50,132 bases of DNA from Thermincola ferriacetica (GTDB taxonomy: Bacteria; Bacillota; Thermincolia; Thermincolales; Thermincolaceae): the NCBI RefSeq assembly GCF_001263415.1, contig NZ_LGTE01000023.1:1-50132 (forward strand), read 5' to 3'. A program made the position numbers and the translations under genes. A model generated the notes under the pieces. That model searched no databases. It saw only the letters and a list, made by a program, of their open reading frames with translations, and was not told the origin of the DNA. Shown piece by piece: positions 301 to 50,132 of the stretch (its first letter is position 1; each line of letters opens with the position of its first letter).

Positions 301-328
301 GCAACTCGTTGTTTTACCGGACAGCGGC
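301..328 (+). repeat. Short dispersed repeat, copy A1
   Basis: This 28-base block contains GTTGTTTTACC and ACAGCGGC in the same spacing as 6433-6460. The two copies lie in the two large gene-free gaps of the window. Function unknown. Confidence 0.5.
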
Positions 329-373
329 CTCTTTCTCACCCTCACCCAGGGCAGGGTAGGCAGGGTTTTCCGC

Positions 374-406
374 CTACCGTTTGGGAGCGACTGCGCCCGC
401 AAAACC
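374..406 (+). repeat. 33-bp dispersed repeat, copy B1
   Basis: It matches 50081-50113 at 31 of 33 positions (my count). The core is GAGCGACTGCGCCCGCAAAA. Both copies are intergenic and lie close to copies of the hairpin element, which suggests that they are parts of one composite repeat family. Confidence 0.65.
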
Positions 407-507
407 GCTGCCGGACAGGCAGAGGAGTTCCCGCATGTTTGAAGATGGCGAAGGCCGCCGGGAAGTCCGGCACTCAACTTATGTAGGGCGCCCCAGGATG
501 TTGATAA

Positions 508-627
508 GGGAGGTTAAATGTTTTCCGGAGCGGGGCTTAAATCGTCCATCGGTCCGCGAGCCGCGTGAGCGGGAGCGGTTATCCGATGGAGATTTCGCCC
601 GGAGCGGAGGAATCATTTAACCTCCCC
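508..627 (+). repeat. Long imperfect palindrome (hairpin element), full copy 1
   Basis: Outer arms 508-520 and 614-626 pair perfectly over 13 bp (AGGTTAAATG against CATTTAACCT). Inner arms 539-552 and 583-595 pair over about 12 bp. Between them both arms carry GGAGCGG in the same, not inverted, orientation. The loop (553-582) is GC-rich. A second full copy on the minus strand at 6119-6233 keeps the architecture while its stem sequences change in a compensated way. It could be a structured RNA, a cruciform or a non-autonomous mobile element. No coding capacity is evident. Confidence 0.7.
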
Positions 628-745
628 TTTTCCTATCTGCGGCACCCAACATATGCTGGGTGACCGGACGGGAGGTGGCCTGACTTATAAGAAATGCAAC
701 ATGAGCCATCGAGTTCGGGAACGCTGCCTGAACGGCAAGGGTTTG

Positions 746-835
746 CAGCACCAAGCTCCCAGGTAGCGGAGACACCCTCCTACCCTGCCGCCATTCCCCA
801 GCACAAAGCTCCGGGGTAGCCGGGTCACCCCTCCC
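746..835 (+). repeat. Degenerate tandem duplication, ~53-bp period
   Basis: Two related blocks begin at 746 and 799. Each has CAGCAC-AAGCTCC, then GGTAGC, then CACCC-TCC. They diverge at several positions. No protein or RNA function is apparent. Confidence 0.45.
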
Positions 836-6100: not shown

Positions 6101-6118
6101 CTTGTTGGTTAAAAAAAA

Positions 6119-6233
6119 GAGGACATATTATTCTTCCGCTCACGGACGAAATTTCCTCCGGCAGCCGCTCCCACTGCCTGGGTCGCGGGGCCGGAGGACG
6201 ATTTAAGTCCCCGCTCCAGAATAATATGCCCTC
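6119..6233 (-). repeat. Long imperfect palindrome (hairpin element), full copy 2
   Basis: Outer arms 6119-6134 and 6218-6233 pair over 16 bp. The only imperfection is a G-U wobble if the minus strand is the RNA. Inner arms 6149-6161 and 6191-6204 pair around CCTCCGG / CCGGAGG. On the minus strand the left arm reads GGAGCGGGG followed by TTAAATCGTCC, as in copy 1. The outer stem (CATATTATTC) differs completely from copy 1 (GTTAAATG), yet pairing is kept. Confidence 0.7.
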
Positions 6234-6256
6234 CTGACACCGGAAAAAAGTGGGAA

Positions 6257-6293
6257 GATTTAAGCCCCGCTCCGGAAAACATTTAACTTCCCC
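6257..6293 (-). repeat. Half copy of the hairpin element
   Basis: Read on the minus strand, these 37 bases equal the left arm of copy 1 (508-544) with about one mismatch. No matching right arm is found nearby. Full copy 2 follows directly on the same strand, as if one element had disrupted another. Confidence 0.65.
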
Positions 6294-6301
6294 TTTTCCT
6301 G

Positions 6302-6354
6302 CTTTGTCTACAATCTGAGAGGTCTGCGGACCTCTTTTCAGTTTGAAGACAAAG
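6302..6354 (+). terminator. Nested hairpin, possible terminator
   Basis: CTTTGTCT (6302-6309) pairs with AGACAAAG (6347-6354). Inside, AGAGGTC (6318-6324) pairs with GACCTCT (6329-6335) around a TGCG loop and is followed by TTTT. It could end the transcript of the upstream regulator gene, 200 bp away. Confidence 0.4.
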
Positions 6355-6665: not shown

Positions 6666-9600
6666 GTGGAAATTAGTAGAAGAGATTTTTTCAAAATCAG
6701 TGGAGCTTTTGCGGCAGTGTGCGCCCTCGGGTTCGACGTTTCTCCTGTCCATGCCCAGGTTCAGGAACTGAGAATCCGTTCGGCTAAAGCCACACCGACC
6801 ATCTGTCCTTTTTGTAGCGTCGGATGCGGTTTGCTGGTTCATACCGATGCAGAAAAGGGACATGTGCTGTACACTGAAGGGGACCCTGACCATCCGGTGA
6901 ATGAAGGGACTGCCTGCAGTAAAGGAGCTTCAGTATTCCAGTTAAATTCCATTGCGGTAGGCAAAATAAACCCCAACCGTTTGACTAAGCCCTTGTACCG
7001 GGCGCCATATAGCGATTCTTTTCAGGAAGTGGAATGGGATTGGGCCATTGAACAAATTGTCGGGAGAATCAAGGAAACCCGCGATAAGACTTTCGTTGCC
7101 CAAAAAGACGGAATTAACGTAATGAGGACCGAGGCTATCGCCAATCTTGGCGGGGCCGGCCTGGATAATGAAGAGTGCTATTTATTGCAAAAACTGGCCC
7201 GTGCTTTGGGCATAGTCTATCTCGAACACCAGGCCCGTATCTGACACAGTTCTACGGTTGCCGGTCTGGCACCATCATTTGGCCGTGGAGCTATGACAAA
7301 TCACTGGATTGACCTGAGAAATACCGATTGTGCACTTATTCTGGGCAGTAATGCTGCGGAAAACCATCCGGTATCTTTCAAGTGGCTGACTCATGCCCGG
7401 GAAAACAGGGGCGCCAAAATTATTCACGTAGACCCCCGTTTTACCCGAACATCCGCCAAGGCTGACATTTATGCTCCTTTGCGCAGCGGTACGGATATTG
7501 CTTTCGTGGGCGGCATGATTAATTATATTTTGGAAAATGATCTATACTTCAAAGATTATGTGGTCAATTATACCAATGCCGCTTATATAGTAGACGACGG
7601 TTTCGATTTTAAAGACGGTTTATTTTCGGGCTATGACGCCGAAAAGAAAAAATACAACCAGGACACCTGGGTATATAAAACGGGTCCTGACGGAAAGCCT
7701 TTAAAAGATATGACACTGCAGCACCCGCGCTGTGTTTTCCAGTTACTGAAAAAGCACTATGCCAGGTACGATGTCGATACCGTAGTGAAAGTTACGGGTA
7801 CACCAAAGGACAAATACCTGGAGATTTGCAAGACTTATGCCGCAACCGGCAGGCCCGATAAGGCCGGGACTATTATGTACGCCATGGGGACAACCCAGCA
7901 TACTGTCGGTTCGCAGAATGTCCGCATTTACGCCATTTTGCAGTTATTGCTGGGCAACATTGGCATTCCGGGTGGCGGTGTGCAGGCCCTGCGGGGCGAA
8001 TCCAACGTGCAGGGTTCTACGGACTATGGCTTGCTATTCCATATCCTGCCCGGATATATCGCAACTCCGAGCGCAAGCCCAGAGCATGCGACACTGAAGG
8101 CGTTCCTGGAAAAAGAAACACCTAAGGCCGGTTTTAAGGTTAATACACCTAAATGGGTTGTTAGTTACCTGAAAGCCATGTGGGGTCCGGCGGCTACCCC
8201 GGCCAATGAGTTTGCTTATCATTACCTGCCCAAGAGGGACCCTGACAAGAACTATTCCCATATAGCTCTTTTTGAAGCTATGTACAGGGGCGAGATAAAG
8301 GGAGCCATGCTGTGGGGGCAGAACCCAGTGGTAGGCGGGCCGAACAGTTCCAGAGAAAAAGAGGCTTTAAAGAGACTTGACTGGATGGTGGCCGTTGATT
8401 TATTCCCGACGGAAACCATGCATTTCTGGACCCGTGAAGCAGGAGAGGACCCTGCCGCTATTAAAACGGAAGTATTTGTTCTGCCTGCCTGCTCTTCTTA
8501 CGAAAAAGAGGGCAGCATCGCCAGTTCCGGGCGCTGGATTCAGTGGCGCTGGAAGGCTACCGCGCCTGTTGGGGAAGCCAAGGCAGACCTGGAGATCATG
8601 CACCTGCTGGCAACCAAACTGAAAGAGGCATACGCCGGCAGCGCCAGGCCAGAGGACGCTCCCATTCGGGACTTATTCTGGGATTATGGCCATGGCGAGG
8701 AGATTGACATTGACAAAGTAGTGCGCGAAATCAACGGCTATGATGTCAAAACAAAGAAACAGGTTAACAATTTCCTTGATCTCAAGGATGATGGCACTAC
8801 CTGCTGTGGTAACTGGATTATGAGCGGAGTCTATCCCGAAGAAGGCAACCTGGCCAAGCGCCGAAACACGGTGGATAAGACAGGTATTGGACAATTCCTG
8901 GAATGGGCCTGGGCCTGGCCGTTAAACCGCCGCATCCTGTACAACCGCGCTTCTGCCGATTTAACAGGTAAGCCCTGGTCCGCGGATAAAGCTGTTATTT
9001 GGTGGGATCCGACGGCTATTGATCCGAAAACAGGTAAACCGGGTAAATGGGTAGGTAAGGACGTTCCGGACTTTAAAGCAACCTGTCCGCCTACGGGCAG
9101 TGATTTCCCCTTTGTAGGCAACCAGCCCTTTATCATGCTTGATGACGGTGTCGCTGGATTATTTGCCAAGAAAGGAATGAAAGAAGGGCCTTTCCCCGAG
9201 CATTACGAACCATGGGAAAGCCCAGTCAGAAACATTATTAACCCTGTTCAGGTAAACCCTGTGGTGAAGGTCTGGAATCCCGACGAGCAGTCTGTTCCCG
9301 GCAGATTCCCGTACGTGGCGACCACTTACCGTGTATCGGAACATTGGCAAACGGGAGCCATGACAAGAAACCAGCCGTGGCAATGCGAGCTGGTGCCCGA
9401 AATGTTTGTGGAAATGAGTAAGGCGCTGGCTAACCAGTTAGGGATTGCCAATGGCGAATGGGTTATCGTAGAAAACATGAGAGGCCGAATTAAGGCAAAA
9501 GCCATGGTAACCGAAAGGTTCCAGCCGATTGAAATTAACGGTAAGAAAGTTCACCAGGTGGGCTTGCCCTGGCACTTCGGCTTTAAAGGATTTGCCAAGG

Positions 9601-16533: not shown

Positions 16534-16589
16534 ATATATAAGCAAATATATAATACACCTTTATTAATGGCTAGATGCTTACTTACAGC

Positions 16590-16726
16590 GCTGAATTCTT
16601 TGCTAAAAAGAAGCGGAGGAACCAACCTTTTGGGGTGAATCCCACAACCATTGTGGGTAGGGTCATCTGTCGACCCGAATCCGTCAGCTAACTTCGCAAG
16701 CGTGGACAGGAAGAAGTGTTTTAGCA
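16590..16726 (+). ncRNA. Cyclic di-AMP riboswitch (ydaO/yuaA class)
   Basis: The closing stem TGCTAAAA (16601-16608) pairs with TTTTAGCA (16719-16726). Inside are the conserved ydaO-class blocks in order: AGCGGAGGAACC, GGGGTGAATCCC, GGGTAGGG, CGACCCGAATCCG, then TCAGCTAA with TTCGCAAGCG. I recognise these from the family; no search was run. It senses c-di-AMP, and in this class ligand binding normally promotes termination. A terminator follows at 16761-16790, before the ribosome site of the aminomutase gene. GTCAGCTAA (16683-16691) could alternatively pair with TTAGCTGAC (16747-16755), and GGACAG (16704-16709) with CTGTCC (16735-16740), which suggests a competing fold. Confidence 0.9.
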
Positions 16727-49945: not shown

Positions 49946-49967
49946 AAACTCACCTACAGGTGAGTTT
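49946..49967 (+). terminator. Hairpin after rpe, weak terminator
   Basis: AAACTCACCT pairs perfectly with AGGTGAGTTT around a tiny loop, but only a poor T-tail follows (CAGGCTG). It may stabilise the 3' end rather than stop transcription. Confidence 0.45.
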
Positions 49968-50000
49968 CAGGCTGTCGACAAAGGTTATTTTAAAAAATTC

Positions 50001-50029
50001 GGGGAGGTTAAATGTTTTCCGGAGCGGGG
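50001..50029 (+). repeat. Half copy of the hairpin element at the right edge
   Basis: These 29 bases repeat the left arm of copy 1 (from 508) without visible mismatch (GGTTAAATG, then CCGGAGCGGGG). The following text diverges and has its own small hairpin (CTGG...CCAG). The remaining part may lie outside the window or be absent. Confidence 0.65.
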
Positions 50030-50080
50030 TTCTGGCTTAATCCGCCAGTTTTTCATAGAGGGGTGGGTGGGGTTCTCAGG

Positions 50081-50113
50081 CTACCGTTAAGGAGCGACTG
50101 CGCCCGCAAAACC
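50081..50113 (+). repeat. 33-bp dispersed repeat, copy B2
   Basis: It matches 374-406 at 31 of 33 positions. As there, a G- and T-rich stretch precedes it (GGGGTTCTCAGG here, AGGGTTTTCCGC there). Confidence 0.65.
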
Positions 50114-50132
50114 ACAGACAAGAAGGCAGGGG

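Follow-up and report, generated by a model that had tools for sequence, protein, structure and literature searches.

The hairpin at positions 508-627 of the window belongs to a hitherto unrecorded family of small mobile DNA elements, and it is at once a conserved hairpin and a part of a transposon. The window, 50,132 nucleotides long, is an entire contig (C23) of the draft genome of Thermincola ferriacetica (3.18 Mb, 78 contigs). Hairpins were present at 508-627 (+) and 6119-6233 (-), where the first-pass annotation had located them, and the compensatory stem changes that it had listed between the two copies are real. Folding all four strands of both hairpins as RNA gave z values of -6.4 to -7.9 relative to dinucleotide shuffles, none of 200 shuffles being equally stable. 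The two copies are subfamilies A and B of one structured repeat. Three things had been missed: half copies at 6253-6292 and 50002-50029; the position of copy 1 at the centre of a far larger imperfect palindrome (about 320-820, z -9.3), here called X; and the true extent of the element, which is longer than the hairpin (about 493-640). The features of the window are the following.

493..640, +: complete mobile element of subfamily A, consisting of left end CCAGGATGTTGATAAGG, hairpin and right end CCTTTTCCTATCTG (paralogous empty and filled sites)
508..627, +: hairpin core (copy 1), the sense strand of which bears GGAGCGGGGCTTAAATCGTCC (fold z -6.4/-7.9; covariance model R1, 138 bits)
469..492, +: left copy of the duplicated target stem-loop, GGCACTCAACTTATGTAGGGCGCC (present once in X copies lacking the element)
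641..665, +: right copy of the duplicated target stem-loop, GGCACCCAACATATGCTGGGTGACC (single in unoccupied X copies)
320..820, no strand: host repeat X, a long imperfect palindrome whose apex holds the element (query region matched 66 times; z -9.3)
6119..6233, -: hairpin core of subfamily B (copy 2), nested within a broken A copy (fold; model R1 match at 6102-6247 (-), 103.7 bits)
6253..6292, -: 5' half of an A element that the B copy interrupts (matches query 9-48 at 95% identity)
6302..6317, -: CAGATTGTAGACAAAG, the outer end of the A element at 6253-6292 (end-pattern search)
6318..6335, no strand: terminator-like stem-loop AGAGGTCTGCGGACCTCT, with element ends abutting both sides (sequence)
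6339..6354, +: CAGTTTGAAGACAAAG, an end belonging to another, degraded element (sequence)
49946..49967, no strand: terminator-like stem-loop AAACTCACCTACAGGTGAGTTT at an insertion site (sequence)
49968..50029, +: left end CAGGCTGTCGACAAAG and left arm of an A element broken by an X copy (half copy 50002-50029)
50030-50132: X copy interrupting the A element and cut by the contig end

Searches of the T. ferriacetica genome with 508-627 revealed nine copies that match most of the query at 97-100% identity, several others at 75-85% and numerous half copies. The nesting of B between the halves of A was found intact at C3 149498-149717 and C17 56263-56488. Copies and fragments of X, an imperfect palindrome measuring about 500 nt and with a folding energy of -254 kcal/mol, are also numerous and often lie at contig ends. 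The A element sits at the centre of X and X in turn inserts into A (window 50030-50132), so that hairpins are repeatedly found within hairpins. Several of the X loci L031-L057 were without an A element. Shortened A elements in which the inner core is partly or wholly missing were seen at L077, L082, L084 and L085; they may be minimal forms or products of the deletions that long palindromes are expected to undergo. Short elements of genome G007 (L146, L150, L154 and L156) have ends of the same kind (GTTTGTTGACAAA...) and the conserved core is absent from them. At L264, L266 and L267 of genome G002 a different hairpin, GGGGGTCCCCCC...CCGTCGAAG...GGGGGCCCC, is inserted within the core arm in three copies; it is another nested hairpin family.

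Comparison of the element copies showed a longer unit around the hairpin, which forms its core; in the relatives G001 and G002 the ends of this unit resemble CAGGCTGTTGACAAAG...CTTTGTCAATAAGCTG. Terminal inverted repeats are present, CAGRYTGTNGACAAAG in T. ferriacetica and CAGGCTGTTGACAAAG / CTTTGTCAATAAGCTG in G001 and G002, and the whole measures about 150-270 bp (about 240-270 nt in G001 and G002). Its plan comprises inverted ends resembling CAGGCTGTTGACAAAG, a spacer, a stem of 15-20 bp and a conserved core in which GA/GA internal loops and a small capped loop are found. Insertion takes place at the foot of a stem-loop already present, which in most cases is an intrinsic terminator and sometimes the apex of another hairpin repeat. 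Almost all element ends found by pattern in the T. ferriacetica genome abut the 3' foot of a stem-loop, and the sequences of these stem-loops differ.

Occupied and unoccupied sites were compared within X. In the 18 X copies that lack A, the apical stem-loop occurs once (GTCCGGCACTCAACGCATGTTGAGTGACCGGAC at L088, for instance) and the anchors are about 54 nt apart, while the X copies with A have 224-226 nt between anchors and the apical stem-loop on both sides (window 469-492 and 641-665). Because several X copies carrying A have the same arrangement, they represent one insertion that has spread with X, and near-identical A copies are in part the spread of X carrying A and not independent insertions.

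Independent insertions were recognised by comparing left with right flanks, a direct repeat being accepted when its score was at or above that of about 0.1% of mismatched flank pairs. Direct duplication of an entire stem-loop surrounded 13 of the 42 copies sampled in G001 and G002, corresponding to 12 independent targets; among the sampled relatives, significant direct duplications occurred in these two genomes only. The duplicated stem-loop, usually an intrinsic terminator, is about 17-37 bp long, and its length varies with the target and is not fixed. The duplicated segment was exactly the stem-loop in several cases (23 bp at L212, 21 at L215, 22 at L219 and 17 at L206), L212 having ACCGGATGCCTGAAACATCCGGT and L219 having GTGGCAGGTATGTTCCTGCCAC on each side of the element. 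At L202, where the stem-loop is imperfect, the direct score was 38 versus an inverted score of 18, which excludes confusion with palindrome symmetry. The orthologous site of L209 is empty in G001, with GGAGAGTGGCAGTTCATATCAAAATGAACTGCCACTCTCTTAATTATC present once, and filled in G002, with the stem-loop present twice and the element between. The element of L212 is absent from the locus in G001 and in G003; G003 has one terminator there, but its flanks have diverged too far for this site to carry weight.

Two pairs of contig ends in the T. ferriacetica genome, C22/C29 and C8/C18, carry at their element ends a terminator that is common to both members of the pair and directly oriented; each pair is probably joined by an element, adjacency being deduced from these ends. 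The T. ferriacetica copy with both ends at C1 33782-33960 has differing stem-loops on its two sides. The stem-loops flanking elements of genomes G005 and G004 are often inverted and seamless, not direct, and are not fully explained by the duplication model; inverted seamless flank repeats, sometimes of a whole stem-loop, were seen at L059, L127 and L134 (G005) and at L168 (G004). Mobility, the ends, the class of target and the duplication of the stem-loop are established, together with the family itself, its covariation, its spread through the order and its high copy number.

Analysis of the neighbouring genes showed that the elements lie at gene ends and avoid divergent pairs, 30 copies being between convergent and four between divergent genes. 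Tandem gene pairs held 21 copies in sense and 32 in antisense orientation in a sample of 87 copies. An apparent sense orientation with the upstream gene, found for 19 of 24 copies in a small sample from relatives, was dropped when the larger sample gave only 51 of 87 (p 0.13). Gene-end position, neighbouring terminators and covariation (see below) would all suit an immobile RNA, selected as a terminator or for mRNA stability and diverged by duplication. That explanation is contradicted by orthologous and paralogous empty and filled sites with target duplication, by nested copies and by near-identical copies, and we consider it extremely improbable. Insertion at gene ends beside terminators would explain how so many copies are tolerated. 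With a terminator on each side of the element, the upstream and downstream transcription units would stay terminated and an insertion should be nearly harmless, which could account for copy numbers that reach about 100 per genome in the order as a whole.

The first-pass annotation had read the hairpin as selected and not simply copied. Thirty-one copies drawn from four genomes, aligned with a core of 142 positions, gave 28 consensus pairs, 21 of which showed compensatory changes on both sides, with up to six standard pair types at a single consensus pair. The covariation score was 0.565 versus 0.21 with shuffled 3' letters, and it fell to 0.08-0.15 when the register was slid by 1-3 columns. 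In 500 shuffles the observed value was not attained for any of five covariation measures, although these counts give no formal probability since the aligned copies are related. Selection on the fold is the plain reading all the same, given how far the score exceeds its controls, how many pair types occur and that several subfamilies are represented. Unpaired features are also conserved, namely segments resembling GAGCGG in each arm and, in most aligned copies, a GA/GA internal loop beneath a small GNRA or GNA-like cap. The possibility that the variable outer stem derives solely from insertion into hairpin loops was rejected, as the stem covaries within homologous elements sharing ends and core.

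Covariance-model scores were about 60-144 bits on the sense strand (with GGAGCGGGG) and about 26-46 bits on the antisense strand at the same places. A model-independent count over 93 copies found that irregular pairs were G-U 165 times on the sense strand versus 77 times on the antisense strand, and 132 versus 31 times in the outer stem. The lean had the same direction in nine of ten genomes and the opposite direction in none; a single inherited position supplies 49 of the G-U irregular pairs, so that p-values are not taken as proof. The preference for G-U over A-C on the GGAGCGGGG strand, which the first-pass annotation had seen in the single irregular pair of copy 2, thus extends to the larger set. 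These data favour the sense strand as the folded form, as RNA or as single-stranded DNA. The earlier reading is supported by the covariation across genomes and by the strand-specific wobble pairs but was incomplete, the element being mobile as well.

Two rival explanations of the element were weighed. If the element were an ordinary MITE, derived from an insertion sequence that is extinct or unsampled, has CAGGCTGTTGACAAAG ends and prefers palindromes, the hairpin would be just a symmetry of its DNA and the covariation would be kept by template correction from arm to arm. Such an origin agrees with the short TIR-like ends, the absence of coding capacity and the nested insertions, which resemble those of pneumococcal BOX, RUP and SPRITE (PMC10969869). 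Correction between arms would, however, erase the internal asymmetries that are conserved (GAGCGG in both arms, GA/GA), the wobble is strand-biased, and the duplication tracks the length of the stem-loop; on balance we find this origin rather unlikely. The second is an RNA-based, SINE-like route, in which the folded sense transcript would be functional and copies would be reverse-transcribed from priming at a nicked terminator hairpin, for example by the protein of a group IIC intron. Duplications of variable length, as observed here, are typical of target-primed insertion, but group II introns are not known to produce such a duplication. The covariation, the preference for G-U pairs on the sense strand, the GNRA-like caps and GA/GA loops, and the terminator targets, as in group IIC introns (PMC3522654), are in line with such a route, whereas inverted ends on both sides and the lack of gene-orientation bias in the large sample (51/87, p 0.13) are not. 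It is in our judgement unlikely.

We consider it probable that the hairpins form a non-autonomous mobile family that inserts at the foot of a stem-loop and duplicates the whole stem-loop by means of an enzyme acting in trans. The putative enzyme would recognise the folded sense strand of the element and would recognise the target by its shape. It might cut an extruded or palindromic site on opposite strands, once at each foot of the stem-loop; the element would then be joined, and repair synthesis of the gap would duplicate the stem-loop. More tentatively, with the balance slightly against, this may be an undescribed kind of integration, in which the enzyme reads the shape of the target and not its sequence, cuts both feet and duplicates the terminator, the sense strand of the inserted element being kept foldable by selection. 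The mechanism of insertion has a fair chance of being new in kind. Such an enzyme would be an integrase guided by structure, for which the sequence of the target need not be fixed, and its cutting rule can already be tested on the 12 independent target duplications.

Neither an enzyme nor an autonomous partner bearing these ends was found. End-pattern searches in T. ferriacetica, G001-G003, G005, G007 and G009 revealed only short elements in the loci read, the assemblies breaking at repeats, and no transposase or reverse transcriptase was linked to the element. The first-pass annotation had allowed that the hairpin might be a terminal part of a known insertion sequence; no known insertion sequence was recognised, as far as testable, and the hairpin proved to be the core of a mobile element.

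Comparison with known systems showed partial likenesses. The bacterial MITEs RUP, NEMIS, ERIC, bcr1 and BOX/SPRITE are likewise short, non-coding, repeated, hairpin-forming and extragenic, and can insert into one another. The target duplications of known MITEs are short and fixed in length, or lacking, whereas the present element duplicates a whole stem-loop of about 17-37 bp, and no parent insertion sequence was found. Spacer integration by Cas1-Cas2 at both boundaries of the palindromic CRISPR repeat duplicates the whole repeat, and the element may be regarded as analogous to Cas1-Cas2 and casposons in that a palindromic target is duplicated whole. It differs from them in targeting terminator-like stem-loops of differing sequence and in that the insert is a hairpin of 150-270 bp. 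To our knowledge, no bacterial transposon that can be named duplicates a whole stem-loop on insertion. Group IIC (bacterial class C) introns insert directly after Rho-independent terminator stem-loops (PMC3522654), and insertion of the element similarly adjoins terminator stem-loops. Unlike these introns, which are self-splicing ribozymes with an encoded reverse transcriptase, the element has no ORF and no Rfam intron RNA match.

Mobilisation as a REP-type repeat by a RAYT (Y1 tyrosine transposase) was also considered, the element being palindromic and extragenic and having in many copies the motif CGTC, which is the tag of one REP superfamily (PMC3733652). Y1 proteins were present in three of the four genomes tested, but no such hairpin was found near the Y1 loci (L121-L126), which are without the core arm, the A stem or the end motif, and the association that links REPs to RAYTs is therefore absent. 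REPs are 20-40 bp long with an invariant GTAG or CGTC tag, whereas the element is larger (150-270 bp), has CATC or TGTC in place of CGTC in several copies and duplicates its target. Mobilisation by a RAYT was rejected as very improbable.

A covariance-model search, which the first-pass annotation had proposed, recovered more copies across the order. The model matched all ten genomes searched from the order to which the window belongs, probably Thermincolales, with 11, 18, 26, 27, 29, 31, 70, 78, 84 and 101 matches (E <= 0.01). The genomes of the order in which related copies occur include that of Firmicutes bacterium HGW-Firmicutes-14. The phylum sample comprised 299 genomes, ten from the order and 289 others, with presence called at E <= 1e-4; only one of the 289 was matched (G083, weakly, best E 7.5e-7). 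Six weaker model matches were seen in this genome (L191, L235), possibly a distant relative or a case of horizontal transfer. No match at the element was obtained with Rfam 15, in searches by gathering threshold and by E-value, nor by BLAST against phage and plasmid records or in an exact-pattern scan of viral contigs, and no description of such an element was found in the open-access literature. The earlier statement that no described element matches is borne out by these searches.

Two further RNA features were identified in the window. An Rfam SECIS_3 match at 7239-7297 coincides with the in-frame TGA of a formate dehydrogenase-like gene, which is likely to encode a selenoprotein, and a c-di-AMP riboswitch (RF00379, 106 bits) is located at 16579-16717.
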